Origin: Microbacterium schleiferi
Lineage (GTDB): Bacteria; Actinomycetota; Actinomycetes; Actinomycetales; Microbacteriaceae
Direction: 5' to 3'
Length of the DNA: 64,000 bases
Assembly (NCBI RefSeq): GCF_015565955.1
Contig: NZ_CP064760.1
Location: 1,054,001-1,118,000, forward strand
Part shown: positions 24,220 to 40,366 of the stretch, piece after piece
Layout of the letters: each line of letters starts with the position of its first letter
Position numbering within the stretch: the first letter of the stretch is position 1
Position numbers and translations under genes: made by a program
Notes under the pieces: generated by a model
Told to the model about the DNA's origin: nothing
The model's input: the letters and a program-made list of their open reading frames with translations, nothing else
Database searches by the model: none

Positions 24220-26753
24220 TGCGCGTTCCGCTCTCGTGGCTCCGCGAGTTCGTCGAGGTCCCCTCCGAAGCCACCCCCGAGGATGTCTTGGCGTCACTGG
24301 TCTCGGTGGGCTTCGAAGAGGAGGACATCCACCGATTCGAGCTGTCGGGCCCGATCGTCGTCGGTGAGGTTCTCGCGTTCGTCGAGGAGCCCCAGTCCAA
24401 CGGCAAGACCATCCGGTGGTGCCAGGTGCGGGTCGCGAGCGGCGAGGGTACGGATGCCGAGCCCGCGGTCCGCGGCATCGTCTGCGGCGCGAGCAACTTC
24501 TTCGTCGGCGACAAGGTCGTCGTGACCCTTCCCGGCTCGGTGCTTCCCGGCCCGTTCCCGATTGCGGCGCGCAAGACCTATGGACACGTCTCGGACGGCA
24601 TGATCGCCTCGGCCAAGGAGCTCGGGCTCGGTCAAGAGCACTCGGGCATCCTGCGCCTGGTGGAGATCGGCGTCGATGCGCCGGTCGGTTCGGACGCGAT
24701 AGCCCTGCTCGGGTTGGACGACGAGGCAGTCGAGATCAACGTGACCCCCGACCGCGGGTACGCGCTCTCGATCCGCGGCGTTGCGCGGGAGTATTCGCAC
24801 GCCACGGGCGCGACCTTCCGCGACCCCGCGGACAGGCCGTGGGATGAGGTCGACCCGGGCGAGGGCTTCTCGATCACCGTCGACGACGCGAACCCCATCC
24901 GCGGCCGCGTCGGCGCTTCCGAGTTCGTCGCGCGGCTCGTTCGCGACGTGGATGCTGCCAAGCCGACGCCCCCGTGGATGATCACCCGGCTCGCTCTTGC
25001 CGGTGTGCGCCCGCTCGGCATCCTGATTGACATCACGAACTACGTGATGCTCGAGCTCGGCAACCCGATCCACGGGTACGACTACGACGCCCTCCGGGGC
25101 GGAATCACCGTTCGTCGCGCTCGCGCCGGCGAGAAGCTCGAGACCCTCGACGGACAGGTGCGCACCCTCAGCACGGAGGACCTGCTCATCACCGATGAGT
25201 CGGGCCCGATCGGCCTCGCGGGCGTGATGGGCGGCGCCACGACCGAGATGGGGTCAGCGACCCGCACCGTGCTCATCGAAGCCGCCACGTTCGATCCCGT
25301 GTCGATCGCGCGGACGGCCCGCCGGCATAAGCTGCCGTCCGAAGCCTCGCGGCGTTTCGAGCGCGGCGTCGACCCCGCGATTCCGTTCGTCGCCGCCCGT
25401 CGGGTTGCCGACCTCATGGTCCAGCTGGCCGGCGGGACACTGGACACCGCGTTCGGCGGTGCCCTGCGTGCCGGGCATGAACAGCCCGCGATCGAGCTGC
25501 CCCGCGGGTTCGTCTCGGGGCTGATCGGCGTCGACTACACGGTTGACCAGATCGTGGAGGCCCTGCGGCTGATCGGCTGTGACATCCAGGATGCCGACAG
25601 CGACGCGAGCGCACCGTGGCTCGTCTTCCCGCCGTCGTGGCGACCTGACCTGACCGACCGGTGGACGCTTGCCGAAGAGGTGGCGCGCATCCACGGGCTC
25701 GACCAGGTGCCCTCGGTCCTCCCCACCCCACCCTCCGGGCGCGGGCTGACTGCCGCGCAGCGTGCGCGGCGTCGGGTGTCGAACGCTCTGGCTGCCGCCG
25801 GCTACGTCGAGACGCCCTCGTTCCCGTTCGCCACGGCCGAGAGCAACGACCTCCACGGCAGCGCTGACGGGCGGCGCCTCCCGAGCATCAAACTCGCGAA
25901 CCCCCTCGACGGGCAGCTGCCCTACCTTCGGCGTTCGCTCATCCCGGGGCTGTTGCAGGTTGCGCACCGGAACCTCTCCCGCGGGCTCGTGGATCTCGCA
26001 CTCTTCGAGACCGGTGTCGTGTTCGTGCCGGCAGACGGCGTGGAGTACGGCACGCCGTTCGTTCCGCCGCTGGGGGTCCGACCCGATGCGGCGACCCTCG
26101 CGGCCCTGGACGCGTCGATTCCCTCGCAGCCGCGCCACGTCGCGATCCTGCTGACGGGGATGCGGGTGTCGAAGCAGCCAGGCCAGGCGGCCGAGGCGGC
26201 AGACCTCGCCGATGTCATCGACGCGGTTCGCACGGTCGCCGCCGCAGCGGGCGTCGAGGTGACGATCGATCAGACGCGGCGCGCCGCGCTGCATCCCGGC
26301 CGAGCAGGCACCGTGCGTGTCGGTGAGGTCGCGGTGGGCTATGTCGGCGAGCTCCTGCCCTCCGTCGCCGCCGATGCCGACCTACCGGGTCGTGTCGTCG
26401 TCGCCGAGCTGGACCTTGACCTCATGCTCTCGCTCGCGGGGGAGCGGGTCGTGGCAGCATCCCTGTCGGGGTTCCCGGCGGCGACGCAGGATGTGTCGCT
26501 CGTCGTGTCGGCGACGGTTCCTGCGGCAGAGGTCGAAGCGGCGCTCGTGTCGGGCGCCGGCGATCTGCTCGAGGCGGTGCGACTCGTGGACGACTACCGC
26601 GGGTCCGGTGTCGCAGAGGGGACGAAGAGTCTGACCTTCGCGCTGCGCTTCCGCGCCCCTGACCGCACGCTCACGGCTGCGGAGGCGACCGAGGCCAAGC
26701 TCGCCGGCGTTGCCGTCGCCGAGGATCGCTTTCAGGCTCACATCCGGGAGTGA
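24219..26753 (+). CDS. pheT: Phenylalanyl-tRNA synthetase beta subunit
   Basis: 844 residues, normal for the bacterial form. Domain order: MRVPLSWLREFVE N-terminus, EMAP-like tRNA-binding OB domain (about residues 40-160), B3/B4 editing domain (GIRV-like region with ITNYVMLELGNPIHGYD), B5 domain (PSWRPDLTDRWTLAEEVARI), the catalytic-like core (FPFATAESNDLHG to FETGVVFVPADG), and a C-terminal anticodon-binding FDX-ACB domain (FPAATQDVSLVVSATVPAAE to LRFRAPDRTLTAAE). The ATG at 24219 overlaps the pheS stop. The open frame upstream of that ATG is a shadow of pheS. Confidence 0.97.
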   Translation: MRVPLSWLREFVEVPSEATPEDVLASLVSVGFEEEDIHRFELSGPIVVGEVLAFVEEPQSNGKTIRWCQVRVASGEGTDAEPAVRGIVCGASNFFVGDKVVVTLPGSVLPGPFPIAARKTYGHVSDGMIASAKELGLGQEHSGILRLVEIGVDAPVGSDAIALLGLDDEAVEINVTPDRGYALSIRGVAREYSHATGATFRDPADRPWDEVDPGEGFSITVDDANPIRGRVGASEFVARLVRDVDAAKPTPPWMITRLALAGVRPLGILIDITNYVMLELGNPIHGYDYDALRGGITVRRARAGEKLETLDGQVRTLSTEDLLITDESGPIGLAGVMGGATTEMGSATRTVLIEAATFDPVSIARTARRHKLPSEASRRFERGVDPAIPFVAARRVADLMVQLAGGTLDTAFGGALRAGHEQPAIELPRGFVSGLIGVDYTVDQIVEALRLIGCDIQDADSDASAPWLVFPPSWRPDLTDRWTLAEEVARIHGLDQVPSVLPTPPSGRGLTAAQRARRRVSNALAAAGYVETPSFPFATAESNDLHGSADGRRLPSIKLANPLDGQLPYLRRSLIPGLLQVAHRNLSRGLVDLALFETGVVFVPADGVEYGTPFVPPLGVRPDAATLAALDASIPSQPRHVAILLTGMRVSKQPGQAAEAADLADVIDAVRTVAAAAGVEVTIDQTRRAALHPGRAGTVRVGEVAVGYVGELLPSVAADADLPGRVVVAELDLDLMLSLAGERVVAASLSGFPAATQDVSLVVSATVPAAEVEAALVSGAGDLLEAVRLVDDYRGSGVAEGTKSLTFALRFRAPDRTLTAAEATEAKLAGVAVAEDRFQAHIRE

Positions 26754-26908
26754 GCAGCATCCCCCGGGGCCGTCCCGGGCGCGTCGTGAGGGGGCGGCGC
26801 GGGCTCGGCTCCCACGCGGGCGGAGCTGGGCCGCTACGCTGGCCACGGGTCAGGGCGGAGGCGCCGGGCCTCAGCCGTGACACACCGACCGCTTAAGGAG
26901 CTGCGCCG

Positions 26909-29797
26909 ATGTCGTCGTTCCTCTATCGGGTAGGCAGGTTCGCGGCCCGCCGACGGTGGACGGTCATCGTCCTGTGGATCGCCGTGGTCGTCGGCGCCTC
27001 AACGCTGGCTGGCGTGCTCGGCAACCATCTGCAGTCGAGCTTCACCGTGCCCGGTACACAAGCGCAGTCGGCTCTGGATGCCCTGGAACAGCGCTTTCCG
27101 CAGATCAGCGGCGCCAGCGCGAAGGTCGTCGTCGCGGCGCCCTCGGGTGAGCAGATCTCGACGAGCGAGAACCTGATCGTCACGGCTTGCGAGGACATTG
27201 CAGCCCTCGATGACGTCGTCGCCGTCACGTGTCCGTACGCGATGGCCGCGAGCGGTGCGACCGCGGCATCCGATGGCGCTGCCTCACAGGTCTCGGCAAG
27301 CGGCGAGATGGCGTTCATTTCGGTCCAGCTCTCGGTCGCCTCCACCGACATCCCCGACACGCTCGTGGCCTCGGTCACGCAGGCCACCGAGCCGATGGCG
27401 GACGCGGGGCTGACCGTTGCTGTCTCGGGTCTTGCCGCCAGTTCGTCGTCGGGGGTCGACTGGACTGAGCTGGCCGGCATGGGGGTGGCCTACATCGTGC
27501 TGGCCATCACGTTCGGGTCCCTGATCGCCGCGGGTATTCCGCTGGTGACCGCAGCACTCGGCGTCGGGCTCGCGGCGAGCGCCATCACGATCGTCGCGGC
27601 TCTCGTTCCGGTCTCTTCGACAGCCCCGGTCCTTGCGACGATGCTGGGCCTGGCTGTCGGTATCGACTACGCCCTCCTGATCACTTCACGGCACCGAGAC
27701 AATCTGCGACAGGGGATGGATCCGGCCGAATCGGTAGCGGTTGCCATCGCGACGGCTGGGACGGCGGTCGTCTTTGCCGGGATGACGGTCATGATCGCCC
27801 TCGTGGGGCTCGGAGTGGCGGGCATTCCGTTCCTCACGGTCATGGGCCTCGGGGCTGCTGGCGCGGTGCTGACGGCGCTGCTCGTGGCTGTGACCCTGCT
27901 GCCGGCGATCCTCTCGCTCCTCGGTCGCCGGCTCATCCCGCGGGGCCGGATGGCTCGCCGGGGGAGTGAACCGGCGCGCACGGCGCGGTGGGTGCGGATC
28001 GTGACCCGCCAGCCGCTTCTGACCGCGATCGGTGTCACCGCGCTGCTCGCGGTGGTAGCGATCCCGGCATCCGGACTGCGTCTGACGCTGCCCGATGCCG
28101 GATACGACCCGCCCGGAACCGAAGCGCGCGTCGCCTACGACCTTCTCGACGAGGGGTTCGGGCCCGGCTTCAACGGCCCGCTGCTGGTGACCGCCGACAT
28201 CTCCCGCACGCTGCAGATCGAGCAGGCTCTCGACGCGCTCCAGGATGCGTTCTCGGGGGTTCCCGGGATCACGGCGGTGTCCCAGGCGTTCCCGAACGAA
28301 GCCCTCGACATGGCAGTTGTGACCATCACCCCCGACAGCTCGCCGTCCTCCGAGCAGACTGCGCAGCTCGTGCAGACGTTGCGCGACCGGGCAGCCACGT
28401 TCGAGGCGGCGAACGGTTTCACATACGAGGTCACCGGCCAAACGGCCCTCGCCATCGACATCTCCGATCGCCTGGGTGCGGCGATGCTGCCGTTCGCGAT
28501 CGTTGTCGTGGGGCTGAGCCTGGTGCTGCTGACGATCATGTTCCGCTCGATCGCCGTCCCGATCACCGCGACCTTCGGCTACCTCCTGACCGTCGGCGCC
28601 GGGCTCGGGATCGCCACCGTGGTGTTCGAGTGGGGATGGGGGGCGTCCCTTCTCGGGGTCGGCAAGGTCGGCCCGGTGATCAGCTTCATGCCGATCCTCG
28701 TCATGGCCGTGCTGTTCGGGCTCGCGATGGACTACCACGTGTTCTTGGTGTCGCGGATGCGCGAACGCTTCGTTGATGCCGGGGACGCGCGCGCGGCTGT
28801 CCTCGACGGTTTCTCGGCCTCCGCGCGCGTCATTACCGCTGCCGCGCTCATCATGTTCTCGGTCTTCTTCTCGTTCGTCCCCGGCGGCAACGCCATCATC
28901 CAGCCGATCGCCCTGGCGCTCGCGGTGGGTGTGCTCATCGATGCCTTTGTGGTGCGGATGACGCTCATCCCCGCCCTGATGGCGCTGCTCGGCGCGCGGG
29001 CCTGGTGGCTGCCGCGGTGGCTCGAGAAGGCTCTTCCCGACGCCGATATCGAGGGCGAGGCCGTGCGTCGGATGCTCGATCAGCGAGAGTGGCGCGAAGC
29101 AGACAGCGAGACCCGCGGCCAGGGCATCCACGCGCACGAGGCGACGTTCGGCGACTCCGCGCCTCTCACTGTCGATGTGCCCAGCTCCGGGGTCCTCCTG
29201 GTCCACGGACCCGAGGCTGCAGCCGTATGCGCGGGTCTGTCGGGGCGGATCCCCGACGTGGCCGGTGATCTCGCGATCGGCGGCCGGCTCATTCCGTTCG
29301 AGCGGGAGCCGCTGTCGCGGGTCTCGATTCTGGTTCCGGCGCTGCCGACCCCGACGGATGCGAGCACGCTTGTCGAGCACGTGCGGCGGGTCGTGCGTCT
29401 GGACGGGAGATCGGGCGACCACCGCGAGCGGGCGCGCCGGGCGATCGAGATCTGGGGTGACCTCTCGGCTGGCCCGGGCGTTCTCGATGAGTTCGATGTG
29501 CCGATGTCGGTTCTCGATGAGCACCAGCGATGGACTCTCGATGCCGCCGCCGCTCTTGCCTCGGCGGCGGAGGTGACAGTCCTCGATATGCGCCGGCGGC
29601 CGGATCAACCGGGGATGCTGGATCGCATCCTGCGCGCCGCGTCGCCCTCGACGACGATCGTGATCGCCCTGACCGAGACAGCCGTCGAGCCCGCCGTTTC
29701 CCTGGCATCTCCCGGGCGCCCCGTGCGTGTCATCCGGGCAGATCCGGCGGCGGATGTTCCCCGTAGCCAGCACGCGACGGACGAGGTGGTCGTATGA
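26909..29797 (+). CDS. MMPL/RND transporter with a degenerate ABC-ATPase-like C-terminal domain
   Basis: 962 residues. Two MMPL halves are present: a first helix (WTVIVLWIAVVVGASTLAG), an extracytoplasmic loop, five helices with the proton-relay motif GIDYALLITSRH; then the second half with AMDYHVFLVSRMRERF and a C-terminal helix bundle ending about residue 700. The remaining 240 residues are soluble. Residues about 750-950 follow the order of an ABC nucleotide-binding domain: VPSSGVLLVHGPEAAAVCAG where a Walker A loop would be, DLAIGGRLIP, LDEHQRWTLDAAAALASA where LSGGQ would be, AEVTVLDMRR where Walker B would be, and TTIVIALTE. The key Gly-Lys-Thr/Ser, signature motif and catalytic Glu are missing. 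It overlaps the YhgE gene by 4 bp. The substrate is unknown. A ribosome site (TAAGGAG) precedes the ATG. Confidence 0.85.
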   Translation: MSSFLYRVGRFAARRRWTVIVLWIAVVVGASTLAGVLGNHLQSSFTVPGTQAQSALDALEQRFPQISGASAKVVVAAPSGEQISTSENLIVTACEDIAALDDVVAVTCPYAMAASGATAASDGAASQVSASGEMAFISVQLSVASTDIPDTLVASVTQATEPMADAGLTVAVSGLAASSSSGVDWTELAGMGVAYIVLAITFGSLIAAGIPLVTAALGVGLAASAITIVAALVPVSSTAPVLATMLGLAVGIDYALLITSRHRDNLRQGMDPAESVAVAIATAGTAVVFAGMTVMIALVGLGVAGIPFLTVMGLGAAGAVLTALLVAVTLLPAILSLLGRRLIPRGRMARRGSEPARTARWVRIVTRQPLLTAIGVTALLAVVAIPASGLRLTLPDAGYDPPGTEARVAYDLLDEGFGPGFNGPLLVTADISRTLQIEQALDALQDAFSGVPGITAVSQAFPNEALDMAVVTITPDSSPSSEQTAQLVQTLRDRAATFEAANGFTYEVTGQTALAIDISDRLGAAMLPFAIVVVGLSLVLLTIMFRSIAVPITATFGYLLTVGAGLGIATVVFEWGWGASLLGVGKVGPVISFMPILVMAVLFGLAMDYHVFLVSRMRERFVDAGDARAAVLDGFSASARVITAAALIMFSVFFSFVPGGNAIIQPIALALAVGVLIDAFVVRMTLIPALMALLGARAWWLPRWLEKALPDADIEGEAVRRMLDQREWREADSETRGQGIHAHEATFGDSAPLTVDVPSSGVLLVHGPEAAAVCAGLSGRIPDVAGDLAIGGRLIPFEREPLSRVSILVPALPTPTDASTLVEHVRRVVRLDGRSGDHRERARRAIEIWGDLSAGPGVLDEFDVPMSVLDEHQRWTLDAAAALASAAEVTVLDMRRRPDQPGMLDRILRAASPSTTIVIALTETAVEPAVSLASPGRPVRVIRADPAADVPRSQHATDEVVV

Positions 29798-31626
29798 CGG
29801 GCCTGTCGGGCCTGCTGGCCGGTGGCGGCCGTGGGCGGGCGATTGCGCTCGCGGTCTTCGCGATCGTCATCCCGCTGCTGGTCATGCTGACGCTGCTGCC
29901 GCGTCAGACCCAGGAGCAGGTTCCGGTCGCGATCGTGAATCTCGATGTTCCGATCGAGAGTGGGAGCACTCCGGTTGCCGCCGGCAAGCTCGTGACCGAG
30001 AACCTCCTGACGACCAATGACGGGATCGCCTGGACCCTGACCGATACGGCGACGGCCGATCAGGGGCTGGCGATGGGGACCTACCTTGCCGTCGTGACGA
30101 TCCCCGCCGATTTCTCGAAGGACGTCGCAACCCTCGGCACTGACGCGCCCACGCAGGCTGACCTGACCGTGCAGACCAGCACCCGCCACGGCTATCTGTC
30201 GGGAGTGCTGGCCGAGGCGCTGGCGGCCGGACTGCCCCGTGGCGTGGAAGCCCAGCTCACCTCGGGATATGTCTCGGGCACGCTGGAGGCGTTCACGGAA
30301 CTGCACACCGGCATCGGCCAGGCCGCCGACGGCGCGGGAGAGCTGGCGAGCGGGATCACCGACGCCGCTGGCGGAGCGGCTGTGCTCGCCCAGGGGCAGC
30401 GGGAGCTGGTCACGGGCCTCGAGGGGATCGGAACGGTGCTTCGCGCCCTCCCGACCGGCGTTCGCGATCTGGGTGCGCTTAGTTCGGCGGCCGGATCTGA
30501 CGCAGCTGCGCTCGCGGGATCGCTGGCCGGTGCCGCGATCGACGCCGAGGCGCTCTCGCTCGCGCAGGATGCCGGGGTGGCAAACCTCGACGTCCTGGCC
30601 GCACTGATCTCCGCGGACCCGACGGCCCCGGCGGGTGATCTGCTCGATGACATCCTCGCGCTGCGCGGCGGCGCGGCAGCCATCGCGTCGGACCTCCAGA
30701 ATCAGGCGGGAGCCCTCGCCGGTGACGCTGTCGATGCCGCCGAGCTCGCGGTCGGCGCTGACGCGGTCGCCGACCTCGCCGGACCCGCGGCATCCGCCCT
30801 GACGGAGGTCGCCGCAGCTCAGCAAGCCGCGGTCTCCGGCGCATCCGATATCGCGACGGGCATGGCGGATCTGGCAACAGGCCTCGAGACCGCGGGCGGT
30901 GCCGCGGGTGACCTTGCCAGCGGACTGGATGAGGCAGCATCCAGCATCCCCAGCTACTCAAGCGCCCAGCAGCAGAGCATCGCGAACACTGTCGCGTCGC
31001 CGATCGGGGTCACCACCACGAGCATCGGCGGACCCGACTCCGCACTGGCTGCTGCCGTCGCTGCCCTGGCGCCGGTCTCGCTGTGGCTGGGAGCCCTCGC
31101 GACCTTCCTGGTCGTGGCGCCCTTTGCCCGGGCCTCTCTTGTGACCCCGGCGACCTCCGCGCACATCGCCGCTGACGCTGCTCTGGTGGCGCTGGGCATC
31201 GCGGCGGTGCAATCCCTGCTCGTCTGGCTCGGCATCGCGGTGCTCGGTATCGTTCCGGACCGGATCGCCGTGGCCTACGGGCTGACCCTTGCCGTCGCGG
31301 TGTCGTTCGCGCTGTTCCATCAGGCCCTCACGGCTCTGTTCGGCCGCGCGGGTCTCATCGTCTCGGTCCTCGCTCTGGGCATTCAGCTCGTCGCCGCGGG
31401 GACCCTCCAACCGGTGACTGATGGGTCGCTGGCTGCCACACCGTTCTCGATCTTGCCGCTGAGTATCGCCCTGCAAGGTGCCGATGCCCTCGTGGGCGGG
31501 TCGTTGCACGAGGTACTGGGGGCCGCGGTCGGGCTGCTCATCTGGGCAGCTCTCGCCTTCGCGGGCACCGTGATCGGCGTCCGCAGGGCCCGCGCTCGGG
31601 CCGTGAGCGCGCTGCTTCCGGCGTGA
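29794..31626 (+). CDS. YhgE/Pip-family ABC-2-type membrane protein
   Basis: 610 residues. One N-terminal helix (AIALAVFAIVIPLLVMLTLL) is followed by a roughly 370-residue extracytoplasmic region with VPVAIVNLDVPI and long alanine-rich helical stretches (SGITDAAGGAAVLAQGQREL, SDIATGMADLATGLETAGG). At least five C-terminal helices follow, from PVSLWLGALATFLVVAPFA to GLLIWAALAFAGTVIGV. This is the layout of phage-infection-protein (Pip)/YhgE, related to ABC-2 permeases. It starts inside the last codons of the MMPL gene (ATGA), so both are made together. No intact ATPase gene is adjacent; the only ATPase-like region is the decayed tail of the MMPL protein. Confidence 0.85.
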   Translation: MTGLSGLLAGGGRGRAIALAVFAIVIPLLVMLTLLPRQTQEQVPVAIVNLDVPIESGSTPVAAGKLVTENLLTTNDGIAWTLTDTATADQGLAMGTYLAVVTIPADFSKDVATLGTDAPTQADLTVQTSTRHGYLSGVLAEALAAGLPRGVEAQLTSGYVSGTLEAFTELHTGIGQAADGAGELASGITDAAGGAAVLAQGQRELVTGLEGIGTVLRALPTGVRDLGALSSAAGSDAAALAGSLAGAAIDAEALSLAQDAGVANLDVLAALISADPTAPAGDLLDDILALRGGAAAIASDLQNQAGALAGDAVDAAELAVGADAVADLAGPAASALTEVAAAQQAAVSGASDIATGMADLATGLETAGGAAGDLASGLDEAASSIPSYSSAQQQSIANTVASPIGVTTTSIGGPDSALAAAVAALAPVSLWLGALATFLVVAPFARASLVTPATSAHIAADAALVALGIAAVQSLLVWLGIAVLGIVPDRIAVAYGLTLAVAVSFALFHQALTALFGRAGLIVSVLALGIQLVAAGTLQPVTDGSLAATPFSILPLSIALQGADALVGGSLHEVLGAAVGLLIWAALAFAGTVIGVRRARARAVSALLPA

Positions 31627-31640
31627 GCGGGTGCGTCGAT

Positions 31641-31670
31641 TTGCTACGTCCCGGCTCTGATCGGTACTCT
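31641..31670 (+). promoter_or_regulatory. Candidate promoter before the argC leader ORF
   Basis: A -35-like TTGCTA (31641-31646) and a -10-like TACTCT (31665-31670) with an 18-bp spacer. The expected start site falls on or next to the ATG at 31677, six bases after the -10. This is the same spacing seen before several leaderless genes in the window. Confidence 0.5.
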
Positions 31671-31676
31671 CGCGAC

Positions 31677-31760
31677 ATGCTCCCGGCACCGCACGACCTC
31701 GTCGCTTCCGCGACGGCGGTCATCGTGCTGCGCCGACGTCTGGGCGGTCGCCGACTCTAG
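31677..31760 (+). CDS. Putative Arg-rich leader peptide upstream of argC
   Basis: A 27-codon ORF starting at ATG and ending at TAG. The peptide begins [17 protein letters not shown] and ends [11 protein letters not shown], with five arginine codons (CGC CGA CGT, then CGC CGA) in its last ten codons. It stands alone between the YhgE stop and argC, 92 bp before the argC ATG, and its start is at leaderless distance from a -10-like box. Ribosome stalling on these codons would be an arginine sensor. Arguments against: no protein-level conservation was checked, argC has its own TAAGGT 7 nt before its ATG, and short Arg-rich ORFs arise easily in GC-rich DNA. Confidence 0.4.
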
Positions 31761-31796
31761 GCGACCCCGCGGCGCGAGTGCGCTGGCGGCGTCGCC
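31743..31796 (+). promoter_or_regulatory. Mutually exclusive hairpins between leader ORF and argC (attenuator-like)
   Basis: Hairpin A pairs GGTCGCC (31746-31752, within the last Arg codons) with GGCGACC (31760-31766); the stop codon TAG lies at its loop edge. Two further G-C pairs can form beyond a 1-nt bulge. Hairpin B pairs the same GGCGAC (31760-31765) with GTCGCC (31791-31796) and encloses a GC-rich stem (31767-31789, loop GAGT). A and B share one strand and cannot coexist. A ribosome paused on the Arg codons would cover the 5' arm of A and favour B. No T-run follows, so whether either acts as a terminator is open. Confidence 0.4.
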
Positions 31797-31852
31797 ACCC
31801 CGGCTCAGACCCCGTGCCGTGCACGACGAACCCAGACAATAAGGTGGAAGCC

Positions 31853-32896
31853 ATGACCTACTCGGTCGCCGTCTCGGGCGCCTCCGGATACGCAGGCGGC
31901 GAGATCCTGCGGTTGCTGGCGGGACATCCCGACATCGACATCCGCACCGTCACCGCCCACTCCACGGCGGGCCAGCCGCTGATCGAGCACCAGCCGCATC
32001 TGCGCTCGCTCTCTCACTTGATGCTCCAGGAAACCACCCCGGAGATTCTCGCGGGCCACGACATCGTGGTCCTCGCGCTGCCGCACGGGCAGTCCGCGCA
32101 GTACACCGACGCCCTCGGCGAGGTGCCGGTGGTGATCGACGCCGGCGCCGATCACCGGCTGCGTGATGCGCTGGCGTGGGAGAAGTTCTACGGCGGTCCT
32201 CACCCCGAGCCCTGGGCCTACGGCGTGCCCGAACTGCCCACCCGAGGCGGGAAGATCCGCGACACCCTCGCGGGTGCGACCCGGATCGCCGCGCCGGGGT
32301 GCAACGCCTCGACCGTCAGCCTCTCGCTTGCTCCGGGCGTCGCAGCCGGGGTCATCGATCCGAGCGATATCGTCAGCGTCCTCGCCGTCGGCCCCTCCGG
32401 CGCCGGCAAGAGCCTCAAACCCCACCTGCTGGCAAGCGAGGTGCTCGGCAGCGCGAATCCGTATGCCGTCGGCGGCACGCACCGGCACATTCCCGAGATC
32501 CGTCAGGCGCTGCAGGATGCCGGGGCCGCCGAGGTGCGCATCTCCTTCACTCCCGTCATCGTCCCGATGGCCCGAGGGATCCTCGCCACCTCGACGGCGC
32601 CGATCTCGGCGGATGCCACGGATGCCGACATCCGTGCGGCCTGGGAGCAGGCGTACGCCGACGAGCCATTCGTACAGCTGCTCCCGGAGGGTCACGTCCC
32701 GCGAACTGCCGACGTCATCGGGGCCAACACGGCGCTGCTGGGGCTTGCGATCGATCGCGCTGCCGGCCGTATGGTCGTCGTCGCTGCCGTCGACAACCTC
32801 GTCAAGGGGACGGCGGGCGCAGCTGTCCAGTCCATGAACATCGCGCTCGGTCTTCCCGAGACCCGCGCTCTGAGCACGAACGGAGTGGCACCGTGA
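31853..32896 (+). CDS. argC: N-acetyl-gamma-glutamyl-phosphate reductase
   Basis: A 347-residue NADPH-dependent reductase making N-acetylglutamate semialdehyde. The nucleotide fold is [18 protein letters not shown]; the catalytic cysteine is in [14 protein letters not shown]; the C-terminal half has [10 protein letters not shown] and [17 protein letters not shown]. The ATG at 31853 lies behind GGTGGAAG, a fair ribosome site, and 7 nt after TAAGGT. The stop overlaps the argJ GTG. First enzyme gene of the arg cluster. Confidence 0.96.
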
Positions 32897-34050
32897 CCGT
32901 CACCGTACCCGCGGGATTCGAGGCGGCGGGTGTCGCCGTCGGCTTGAAATCCACCGGAAAGCCGGATGTCGCCGTGGTCGTCAACCGCGGTCCGCTCGCT
33001 GTCGGTGCGGCGGTCTTCACGAGCAACCGTGCCAAGGCCAACCCGATCCTCTGGTCGCAGCAGGCCATCCAGGATGGCGTCGTCGAGGCCATCGTGCTCA
33101 ACTCGGGCGGCGCGAACTGCTTCACGGGATCGTTCGGGTTTCTCACGACGCACCTGACCGCCGAGCGGGCAGCCGAGCTCCTCGGTGTGAGCGCGGGCGA
33201 CATCCAGGTGTGTTCCACCGGCCTCATCGGCACGGGAGATCAGGTCTTCCGCGACAAGGTGCTCGCGGGAACCGAGGCCGCCATCGGCGCGCTGTCGACC
33301 AGTGGCGGCGATGATGCGGCCCGAGCGATCATGACGACGGACTCCCGTCCGAAGACCAGCACCGTCACGGCAGACGGGTGGACGATCGGCGGGATGGCCA
33401 AGGGGGCCGGAATGCTGGCTCCCGGGCTTGCGACGATGCTCGTCGTCCTGACCACCGATGCCGTTCTCACGGCCGCCGAAGCCGACGAGCACCTCCGGGC
33501 TGCCACGCGCGTGAGCTTCGACCGCCTCGACTCCGACGGCTGCATGTCGACCAACGACCAGGTGACACTGATGGTCAGTGGCGCCAGCGGCATCGTCCCC
33601 GCTCCGGACGCGTTCCGGGCGGCGCTGATCGAGGTCTGCACCGACCTCGCGACCCAACTGCAGTCCGACGCCGAGGGGGCGAGCCACGACATCACCATCG
33701 AGGTGATCCACGCGGCATCCGAGGACGACGCCGTCGAGGTCGGGCGTTCGGTAGCCCGGAACAACCTGTTCAAGGCCGCGATCTTCGGCAACGACCCCAA
33801 CTGGGGACGTGTGCTGGCAGCGATCGGCACGACGGATGCCGAGTTCGACCCGTATGCCGTGGATGTCGAGATGAACGGCGTCCGCGTGTGTTCCGACGGC
33901 GGTCCTGATCAGCCCCGCGAGCTCGTGGACCTCTCGCCGCGCGCGACGAGCGTCGTCATCGACCTCAAGGTCGGCGACGCCTCGGCCACGATCTACACCA
34001 ACGACCTCACCCACGACTACGTTCACGAGAACAGCGCCTACTCCTCATGA
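32893..34050 (+). CDS. argJ: Bifunctional ornithine acetyltransferase/N-acetylglutamate synthase
   Basis: 385 residues from GTG 32893. ArgJ recycles the acetyl group from N-acetylornithine to glutamate. The precursor self-cleaves before a conserved threonine; here the site lies in [18 protein letters not shown], giving alpha and beta chains. Other motifs: [36 protein letters not shown], and [15 protein letters not shown]. Because no argA is seen and argJ is present, the cyclic acetyl route is expected. It overlaps argC and argB, each by 4 bp. Confidence 0.96.
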
Positions 34051-34940
34051 CCGATCTGCAAGAGACCACCCCGACGAGGCCGCCGAGAAGGCAGCCGTCC
34101 TCATCGAGTCGCTGCCGTGGCTCAAGCGTTTCCGCGACCAGATCGTCGTCGTCAAGTACGGCGGCAACGCGATGGTCTCCGAAGAGCTCCAGCGCACCGT
34201 CGCCGAAGACATCGCCTACCTGCGCTTCGTCGGCGTCAAGCCCGTCGTGGTCCACGGCGGCGGTCCCCAGATTTCCCGGATGCTTGAGCGCCTCGACATC
34301 CCGAGCGAGTTTCAAGGCGGCTACCGGGTCACGAACACCGAAGCGATCTCGGTCGTCCGGATGGTTCTCACCGGCCACATCAACCCTCAGCTCGTGTCGA
34401 AGATCAATGCGCACGGTCCGCTTGCGAGCGGCCTGTCGGGTGAGGACGCCGGATTGTTCGGGGGTCGCCGCCGCGGCGTCGTCGTCAACGGCGAAGAGGT
34501 CGACCTCGGGTCGGTCGGCGATGTCGTCCACGTGAACCCGGCAGCGGTTCTCGACCATCTCGCCGCCGGCCGCATCCCCGTCGTGTCCTCGATCGCGCCG
34601 GATCTGGACCGACCCGGACAGACCCTCAATGTGAATGCCGATGCCGCCGCCGCGGCTCTCGCCGTCGCGATCGGCGCCGCCAAGCTGGTCATCCTCACCG
34701 ATGTCCCGGGACTCTACGCCGACTGGCCCGACCGCGACTCGTTGGTCTCGCACCTCACGTCGACAGAGCTGCGAACGATGCTGCCGACGCTGGAGTCGGG
34801 AATGGTCCCCAAGATGCAGGCGTGCCTGGACGCGGTCGACGGGGAGTGGACACGGCAGCGATCATCGACGGACGCGTGCCCCATTCGCTCTTGATCGAAG
34901 TGTTCACGAGCAAGGGCATCGGAACAGAAGTGGTCAGCGG

Positions 34941-34944
<4 letters not shown>
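34047..34944 (+). CDS. argB: Acetylglutamate kinase, two frameshifts
   Basis: 299 residues after repair. ArgB phosphorylates N-acetylglutamate and is often the feedback-controlled step. Motifs: [59 protein letters not shown] and [15 protein letters not shown]. Two breaks: the C-run 34069-34072 near the start (one extra C gives [20 protein letters not shown]) and the G-run 34841-34844 near the end (one extra G gives [20 protein letters not shown] and a stop at 34942-34944). With both repaired the length is divisible by three, and both junctions (ATGA with argJ and with argD) are the expected overlaps. The core between the breaks is intact. Confidence 0.93.
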
Positions 34945-39652
<4,708 letters not shown>

Positions 39653-39721
39653 CGCGCCTGATCGACTCGGAAAATCAGCTTGAGGCTTATTCTTTTGTTT
39701 CATCAGCGGTAGACTGCTCGC

Positions 39722-40366
39722 GTGACCATCGCGGTGATCGCCGACATCGTCGGCTCCCGGCGCCTCGCCGACCGGGATGCCGCGCAGCGCGAGCTTGAGG
39801 CGACGATCGCGCGCGTCCACGCCGAGCGACCGACCGCGATCACCCCGCTGACGGCGACGTTCGCCGATGAGTTCCAGGCGGTGTTCGAGGACCTGGATCA
39901 GGCGCTCGCGTGGCTGCTGCTGCTGCAGCTCGCCCTTCCCGAGGGGATCGAGCTGCGCTTCGGGATCGGGATCGGCGCCGTGGGGGCCGTCTCGTCTGCG
40001 ACCGACCACATCTCCGATGGCCCCGGTTGGTGGTCCGCCCGGGACGCGGTCGAGGCCGTGCACCGCCTGCAGGATCGCGCGGTGCCGCGTGCCCGGACGC
40101 GCGTTGTCGCGGGTGCGGGGGAGGATGCGGCCATGGCCGAGCGCGTCCGATCCGTGAACGCCTACCTGCTTGTCCGCGACGAGATCGTCGGCGCGATGAC
40201 GCCGCGCACGCGCCGGCTCGCGTACGGCCGGTGCCTGGGCCGCACGCAGCGCGACCTGGCCGCCGAGGAGGGAATCACGCAGTCGGCGGTCTCTCAAGCG
40301 CTCGCCGCCGGCGGTGCCGCGGGGCTCGTGGCCGGATTCCAGACACTGGAGGAGGGCCCCCGGTGA
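39722..40366 (+). CDS. SatD-family protein with C-terminal helix-turn-helix
   Basis: 214 residues from GTG 39722, which lies 6 nt after TAGACT (39710-39715). The N-terminal part (TIAVIADIVGSRRLADRDAA, then ATFADEFQAVFEDLDQAL and GIGIGAVGAV) is typical of the SatD family, named after a streptococcal acid-tolerance locus. The C-terminal 45 residues (RTQRDLAAEEGITQSAVSQA) read as a helix-turn-helix, so the protein may regulate itself or its partner. The 69 bp upstream include an unusually T-rich stretch (39688-39702) for this genome. It overlaps the following membrane gene by 4 bp. Molecular function is unknown. Confidence 0.78.
   Translation: MTIAVIADIVGSRRLADRDAAQRELEATIARVHAERPTAITPLTATFADEFQAVFEDLDQALAWLLLLQLALPEGIELRFGIGIGAVGAVSSATDHISDGPGWWSARDAVEAVHRLQDRAVPRARTRVVAGAGEDAAMAERVRSVNAYLLVRDEIVGAMTPRTRRLAYGRCLGRTQRDLAAEEGITQSAVSQALAAGGAAGLVAGFQTLEEGPR

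Follow-up and report, generated by a model that had tools for sequence, protein, structure and literature searches.

The arginine operon of Microbacterium schleiferi begins behind a short, Arg-rich open reading frame (mini-ORF) that carries a leaderless-type promoter and a hairpin seated on its stop codon. Comparison with related genomes makes it likely, with good support, that this leader acts as a ribosome-mediated, arginine-specific attenuator of argCJBDFH. From the sequences we infer the sensing, the output and its direction, and the output step is put forward as a proposal. The window analysed comprises 64,000 nucleotides of contig NZ_CP064760.1 (assembly GCF_015565955.1, positions 1,054,001 to 1,118,000). 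A preliminary description, made from its letters alone, had singled out the mini-ORF; sequence comparison confirms it and takes it further than that description could know: within a family that lacks a detected ArgR, the Arg-codon leader is conserved, of leaderless type and accompanied by a hairpin of its own.

An Arg-rich mini-ORF upstream of argC

The mini-ORF runs on the forward strand from an ATG at 31677-31679 to a TAG at 31758-31760, contains 27 codons with five Arg codons among the last ten, and ends 92 nt before argC. The six-base spacer CGCGAC separates its ATG from the −10-like TACTCT (31665-31670), and TTTGCT (31640-31645) ends 19 bases 5' of that hexamer. The preliminary description had reported the 27-codon ORF with its five Arg codons and a −10-like hexamer six bases before the ATG; coordinates, codons and spacing were all reproduced, and the hexamer stands 6-7 nt from the ATG in 104/104 Microbacterium leaders (6 nt in 100, 7 nt in 4). 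The frame is also open 5' of the ATG, back to a GTG at 31623; the ATG at 31677 was chosen because its distance from the −10-like hexamer is fixed in relatives. From the promoter spacing, the mRNA 5' end would lie at the A of this ATG. The features of the region are as follows.

31640..31645, + strand: −35-like TTTGCT (GATTTGC); TTTG lies 18-26 nt before the −10 in 97/104 Microbacterium and 4/32 other-genus leaders
31665..31670, + strand: −10-like TACTCT of a leaderless-type promoter; TANNNT in 104/104 Microbacterium leaders
31677..31760, + strand: Arg-rich leaderless-type mini-ORF, 27 codons plus TAG (rule-based ORF search, conservation, shuffles)
31700..31715, + strand: hairpin P0 inside the ORF (CGTCGC-TTCC-GCGACG), a possible pausing hairpin; folding z median −1.98 (104 Microbacterium) versus −0.59 (30 other-genus)
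31731..31739, + strand: first Arg run, CGC CGA CGT, the proposed sensor codons; Arg in 35, 36 and 37 of 37 leaders of 27 aa
31749..31754, + strand: second Arg pair, CGC CGA; kept in 37/37 leaders of 27 aa
31760..31765, + strand: hairpin 5' arm GGCGAC, starting at the last base of the stop codon
31791..31796, + strand: hairpin 3' arm GTCGCC
31797..31839, + strand: C-rich, weakly structured spacer without a U-tract, candidate Rho-loading region
31840..31845, + strand: TAAGGT, in which an AAGG Shine-Dalgarno (SD) core (31841-31844) overlaps a possible −10 of a leaderless argC transcript
31853..32896, + strand: argC, first gene of the arginine operon (TIGR01850 above cut-off, 344.8 bits)

The spacing between TTTG and the −10 is 19 in 99 of the 101 leaders that have TTTG. 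Rfam 15 models gave no match at the gathering threshold in 26000-40000; with E values up to 5, the stretch 31560-31900 gave one, the Pseudomonas sRNA P37, at 15.8 of 50 bits.

After argC the genes follow in the order argJ, argB, argD, argF, argH, with no argR among them. argB looks broken (34047-34894): the TIGR00761 frame at 34172-34894 aligns to positions 11-225 of the 231 in the profile, another frame, without a family match, opens with an ATG at the argJ stop, and the break possibly reflects sequence errors. In the gap between argF and argH (36916-38228), what appears by eye to be a membrane protein is seemingly split across two overlapping frames, which could be due to assembly errors in the window genome.

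The leader is conserved in Microbacterium

An argC match was obtained for 75 of 78 relatives, the best 30 of which were taken as loci, and the best 80 of 571 matches from an argC search of genome contigs were kept; these 110 loci gave 105 distinct upstream sequences. A leader was defined by an ATG with TANNNT 6-7 nt before it, 15-45 codons, and at least 4 Arg codons in the second half. This rule, drawn up after the sequences had been looked at, was satisfied by 104/105 distinct Microbacterium argC upstreams, compared with 1/2100 dinucleotide shuffles and 1/105 reverse complements. Thus, the Arg-rich mini-ORF before argC is not a product of chance. All 15 further same-genus genomes with argC also carry the leader, so that it is present in 44/45 such genomes (29/30 plus 15/15). 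The closest relative among the matches listed (L031, argC 92% identical) has a 27-aa leader.

The only leader-less Microbacterium upstream found (L018, identical to L065; G030) has unrelated sequence in that place, and its argC retains TTAAGGTGGAACCATG. Three loci (L041, L069 and L290) carry a divergent leader in which the peptide extends to SAGRCSLRA and argC lies closer (58-60 nt).

Distribution of the leader in Microbacteriaceae

argC was matched in 236 of 249 family genomes. From 150 listed argC places we picked 60 genomes representing 57 further genera, and argC upstreams from 20 of the 31 genomes sampled outside the family but within the order served as an outgroup. The leader precedes argC in 33 of the 60 other-genus loci (31 by rule and two, L123 and L165, added by hand) and is missing from 27; L120, which fits the ORF rule and has no hairpin, was dropped from the set. 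Hence the Arg codons upstream of argC, and not the DNA alone, are conserved in related Microbacteriaceae (104/105 Microbacterium and 33/60 other-genus loci), which was the check that the preliminary description had suggested. When either ATG or GTG was allowed, the rule selected 30/60 other-genus loci (3/1200 shuffles) and 0/20 outgroup loci (2/400 shuffles). The leader peptides are 20-38 aa long and have little in common across genera beyond the Arg codons, the Arg-rich end being the conserved part. The "Arg run" is loose in some genera: in 4/33 other-genus leaders, no window of 4 codons contains more than 1 or 2 Arg.

A covariance model trained on 65 leaders, all from Microbacteriaceae, matched 104/249 family genomes and 42/85 genera (E up to 0.001). 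Among its 107 matches, 82 fall in genomes with a listed argC place and 25 are unplaceable; 80 of the 82 stand on the argC strand, 19-77 nt ahead of the gene, and the two that lie elsewhere rank 105 and 107 of 107. In a class-wide search of 246 genomes, all 10 matches of at least 44 bits were within Microbacteriaceae. True Microbacteriaceae leaders score as low as about 35 bits, so score alone cannot dismiss weaker matches elsewhere; the five best of these (L207-L211, 33.6-40.3 bits) fall within frames that stay open for 331-921 codons and were put down to chance. The next best match in the window's own genome (L192, 29.8 bits), ahead of five weaker ones, lies within a 598-codon ORF and was likewise rejected as a second leader copy. 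Some leaders escape the model: G043 bears a divergent leader, but the model gave there only a 30-bit match away from argC.

In the argC tree, Microbacteriaceae form one clade with leader-bearing rows scattered inside it. Gain and loss of the leader on the best tree require 13 changes, 3 of them forced by well-supported branches. Early gain followed by repeated loss would be the simplest reading; the argC tree is too weak to serve as its proof. In two leader-less loci, L114 (G081) and L130 (G112), the upstream gene (pheT by eye) ends near argC and the 3' arm motif GGCGTCGCCGCC persists; in L114 the upstream gene also contains GGCGAC at its end, and the covariance model matches G081 at 37.4 bits. 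The arm motif in these loci is possibly a remnant after mini-ORF loss, or a source of the hairpin.

The leader hairpin and the RNA downstream

The hairpin at 31760-31796 appears in the predicted fold of the window's simulated stalled state. Of 137 leaders, 112 have the GGCGAC/GTCGCC helix beginning on the final base of the stop codon. The remaining 25 have a stop codon that ends 13-28 nt past the start of the 5' arm, so a ribosome would traverse the arm. The hairpin spans 37 nt in the window, within a range of 37-64 nt for Microbacterium; in other genera the range is 41-62 nt. Its folding z has medians of −3.42 and −3.46 and is below −2 in 93% and 94% of leaders, respectively, with energies and pair counts biased upward because pairing helped to decide which 3' arm was used, and because the arm was adjusted manually in L117, L128 and L131. 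RNAalifold recovers the same helix unprompted. In 65 aligned leaders, 90.6% of the cells of the main helix are paired and double changes occur at 4 of 8 pairs; its covariation score was equalled in 0/500 shuffles and its number of doubly changed pairs in 22/500, and a partner slid by −3 columns scored 0.166 against 0.164 for the helix. Because the slid partner and the 22 shuffles equal it, the evidence for the helix comes less from covariation than from folding energy and the percentage of paired cells.

Other structures proved less general. The P0 hairpin is supported only in Microbacterium. The window hairpin written as GGTCGCC/GGCGACC is, by eye, not kept as such in other genera. GCCG of the second Arg pair can pair with CGGC at 31801-31804; a GCCG-YGGY helix was rejected as a general part of the leader, the motif pair being found in 89/104 Microbacterium and 6/33 other leaders in a count of motif presence rather than of pairing.

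Between hairpin and argC, the RNA contains 46% C and 27% G in Microbacterium and 43% and 23% elsewhere, compared with 37.5% and 32.5% in the window's argC, and its folding z has a median of +0.32 in Microbacterium and +0.50 in other genera. Only 1/137 leaders has four consecutive U in the 25 nt that follow the hairpin, and an intrinsic terminator, or classical U-tract attenuator, was rejected on this count. Eight folds of the stop state showed no common alternative fold that would provide a terminator helix competing with the hairpin.

The stalled state was modelled by placing a ribosome, with 14 nt covered, at the second of the run's Arg codons. In this state, 72% of Microbacterium leaders and 73% of the others had a predicted helix probability above 0.5, compared with 66% and 73% of ribosome-free leaders. 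With a ribosome at the stop codon the modelled helix cannot form, a consequence of the assumed footprint. The distance from the first Arg codon of the run to the hairpin arm has a median of 29 nt (range 11-80), so a stalled ribosome would leave the arm free in most leaders. With the arm free under stall, the hairpin should favour expression, if the operon answers to shortage.

The same sensor might instead act on translation, the stalled ribosome or the hairpin altering access to the argC ribosome-binding site. The near absence of U-tracts and the SD core of leader-bearing argC genes would suit such translational attenuation. However, the predicted openness of the SD site hardly differs between the stalled and stop states (0.49 versus 0.48 in 104 Microbacterium leaders, 0.57 versus 0.61 in 33 others), and the distance from the mini-ORF stop to argC is highly variable (58-139 nt in Microbacterium, 61-122 nt in other genera), which renders this alternative unlikely. 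SD sequestration was set aside for want of a predicted change in openness between ribosome states. As neither a U-tract nor a predicted SD effect is present, Rho is the likeliest partner of the attenuator, and the termination step probably acts through it.

The start of argC

The preliminary description had offered TAAGGT, immediately before argC, as a competing explanation for argC transcription. The hexamer is there; in leader-bearing species it is better read as an SD core that often doubles as a −10. AAGG, GAGG or GGAG precedes argC in 40/41 leader-bearing loci (33 other-genus and 8 chosen Microbacterium) and 9/27 leader-less loci (Fisher p 6e-9, kinship-uncorrected); after correction for kinship, 3 supported independent pairs are left, which cannot reach significance, and the association is inseparable from kinship. 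TANNNT lies 5-8 nt before argC in 34/41 and 20/27 of these loci, respectively, and the SD core is kept in all 7 leader-bearing loci that lack TANNNT. Since the SD core accompanies the leader in 40/41 loci and is kept where TANNNT is lost, the argC message is probably part of the leader transcript. In addition, argC may be transcribed leaderless from TAAGGT, bypassing the leader.

A stronger form of the competing view takes the leaderless promoter TAAGGT-N6/7-ATG as the sole origin of argC transcription, the mini-ORF being an unrelated small gene or a by-product. The frequency of TANNNT before argC with and without a leader fits this view, as do the leaderless-looking argC starts of most outgroup loci, but the placement of 80 of the 82 locatable model matches just upstream of argC, the SD core in the 7 loci without TANNNT, and the co-occurrence of hairpin and Arg codons speak against it; we regard it as improbable. 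The outgroup and many leader-less argC starts look leaderless (TAGATT-N6-ATG and similar). In the loci from other families of the order (L171-L190) such a start often has an ARG-box-like site over the −10, for example TGTATAGTTATGCACATG in L176.

Arg codon choice in the leader

Arg codons in the leaders differ sharply from those in argC. Of the 650 Arg codons that 104 Microbacterium leaders contain, 21 are CGG (3%), against 508 of 1730 in argC (29%); for CGA the counts are 204/650 and 46/1730. The 33 other-genus leaders deviate from their own argC in the same way (CGG, 16/253 versus 144/504; CGA, 61/253 versus 22/504). These tests overstate independence, many loci being related. The last two Arg codons can take part in an outer helix; with them left out, CGG made up 4.9% in Microbacterium and 8.1% in others, and CGA 23% and 13%. 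Avoidance of CGG is strong, not absolute, since at least one CGG is present in 20/104 Microbacterium and 14/33 other-genus leaders. CGU, CGC and CGA are generally decoded by one tRNA (ICG) and CGG by another. The avoidance of CGG and over-use of CGA favour a sensor that reads decoding rather than the peptide, and suggest that the measured quantity is decoding by the tRNA reading CGU, CGC and CGA.

The codon skew bears on another type of sensor. In the fungal arginine attenuator peptide, free arginine is sensed through arrest of the nascent peptide, and the leader peptide could in principle be such a sensor, its Arg-rich end being the part conserved across genera. A peptide sensor has no need of a strong skew among synonymous Arg codons, and the remainder of the peptide differs among genera; nascent-peptide arrest is accordingly very improbable. 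That the small Arg-rich peptide works as a protein, for instance as an RNA or membrane binder, is barely credible: the ORF is conserved, but its length (20-38 aa) and non-Arg sequence drift between genera.

ArgR and the ARG box

The two ArgR domains, PF01316 and PF02863, had no match in the whole 3.3 Mb window genome, while 9/14 and 8/14 control genomes, respectively, gave matches. PF01316 was found in 0/47 same-genus and 0/249 family genomes (85 genera) and in 31/31 sampled genomes from other families of the order, the search of the genus and family with PF02863 being confined to the window's own genome. The lack of argR that the preliminary description had noted for the cluster therefore holds, and PF01316 is absent from all 249 sampled family genomes too. 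A site matching the ARG-box consensus TGNATNNNNATNCA with at most 1 mismatch was present within 80 nt at the argC start in 16/20 outgroup loci, and in 0/60 other-genus family loci and 0/110 Microbacterium loci. At two mismatches it appeared in a further 3 outgroup, 4 other-genus and 11 Microbacterium loci. Neither mark of an ArgR regulon, an argR gene together with an ARG box at argC, was thus found in the window genome. The distribution of the leader and of ArgR suggests that the leader replaced ArgR/ARG-box control after loss of argR in the family ancestor.

Proposed mechanism

Clustered codons for the end product in a short ORF before a biosynthetic operon, the mark of leader-peptide attenuation in the broad sense, are present here. 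We propose that transcription initiates at the first base of the mini-ORF, the A of its ATG, and that a ribosome loads directly on the leaderless end. With ample arginine, the ribosome would pass the Arg codons, reach the stop and cover the hairpin's 5' arm; the C-rich stretch downstream would stay open and transcription would end early, most likely via Rho. When charged tRNA-Arg is short, the ribosome would stall on the first Arg run, a median of 29 nt before the arm. The GGCGAC...GTCGCC hairpin could then form, masking or changing the C-rich loading region, polymerase would continue into argC, and argC would be translated from the AAGG site.

The full account, which we advance tentatively, is that an ArgR-less ancestor of Microbacteriaceae may have moved to an RNA switch, in which a leaderless CGY/CGA ORF reads the charging of one tRNA-Arg isoacceptor and a stop-seated hairpin gates Rho-dependent termination before argC, and that this switch was lost again several times.

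DISCUSSION

Classical attenuators (trp, his, leu, ilv, thr, phe) combine codons for the amino acid in a leader ORF with RNA structure that a stalled ribosome permits or blocks. The argC leader differs from these in its leaderless-type start, in lacking a U-tract terminator and, in the eight stop-state folds, a terminator helix, and in responding, as proposed, to arginine. ArgR with the ARG box has the same target, argC, and the same physiological job as the leader, but is a DNA-binding repressor.

Among published systems, the polycysteine leaderless short ORFs before cysteine-pathway genes of mycobacteria come close (Canestrari et al. 2020, as cited in PMC9094748 and PMC9031893; Shell et al. 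2015, PMC4633059). Shared with them are a leaderless short ORF, a cluster of codons for the pathway's amino acid, pathway genes next to it, and membership of Actinomycetota. Unlike them, the argC leader uses Arg rather than Cys, has a strong stop-seated hairpin, belongs to another family and occurs where a dedicated repressor is absent. In PMC1262725, terminator hairpins were likewise not seen in the mycobacterial cysteine case, and Rho was suggested. PMC12810186 offers a precedent for Rho-dependent leader control in Actinomycetota.

Two other leaders are reported to read Arg codons. The Salmonella orf34/speF leader (PMC6386406) shares Arg codons in a short upstream ORF and the involvement of Rho, and orf34 is described as pausing without arginine, with alternative RNA structures; it differs in that it controls ornithine decarboxylase (speF), that translation interferes with Rho, and that the arginine output runs via RNase G. 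Staphylococcus aureus rbfL (PMC13009471) likewise has a short Arg-codon ORF in which arginine limitation is sensed by tRNA charging, but there limitation blocks translation of a regulator gene, the codons are two, AGA and AGG, and no biosynthetic operon is involved.

A 2005 survey of Actinobacteria saw no conserved RNA structure ahead of arginine operons (PMC1262725). Our search of titles and abstract openings, drawn mostly from open-access papers, returned no arginine attenuator before argC in Actinomycetota. If the attenuator reading is true, the leader would be, as far as this search reaches, the first arginine-biosynthesis attenuator in Actinomycetota, and would represent a family-wide swap from a repressor to a leaderless attenuator. 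Leaderless attenuators that respond to an amino acid would then no longer be confined to the cysteine genes of mycobacteria, and, given the codon bias, synonymous changes offer a test of which isoacceptor the attenuator reads. The order also offers a natural comparison of three promoter states: ArgR with an ARG box in other families, the leader in about half of the sampled genera, and neither in the rest. For Microbacteriaceae, a family in which no ArgR was found, the leader would provide a concrete mechanism of arginine control.
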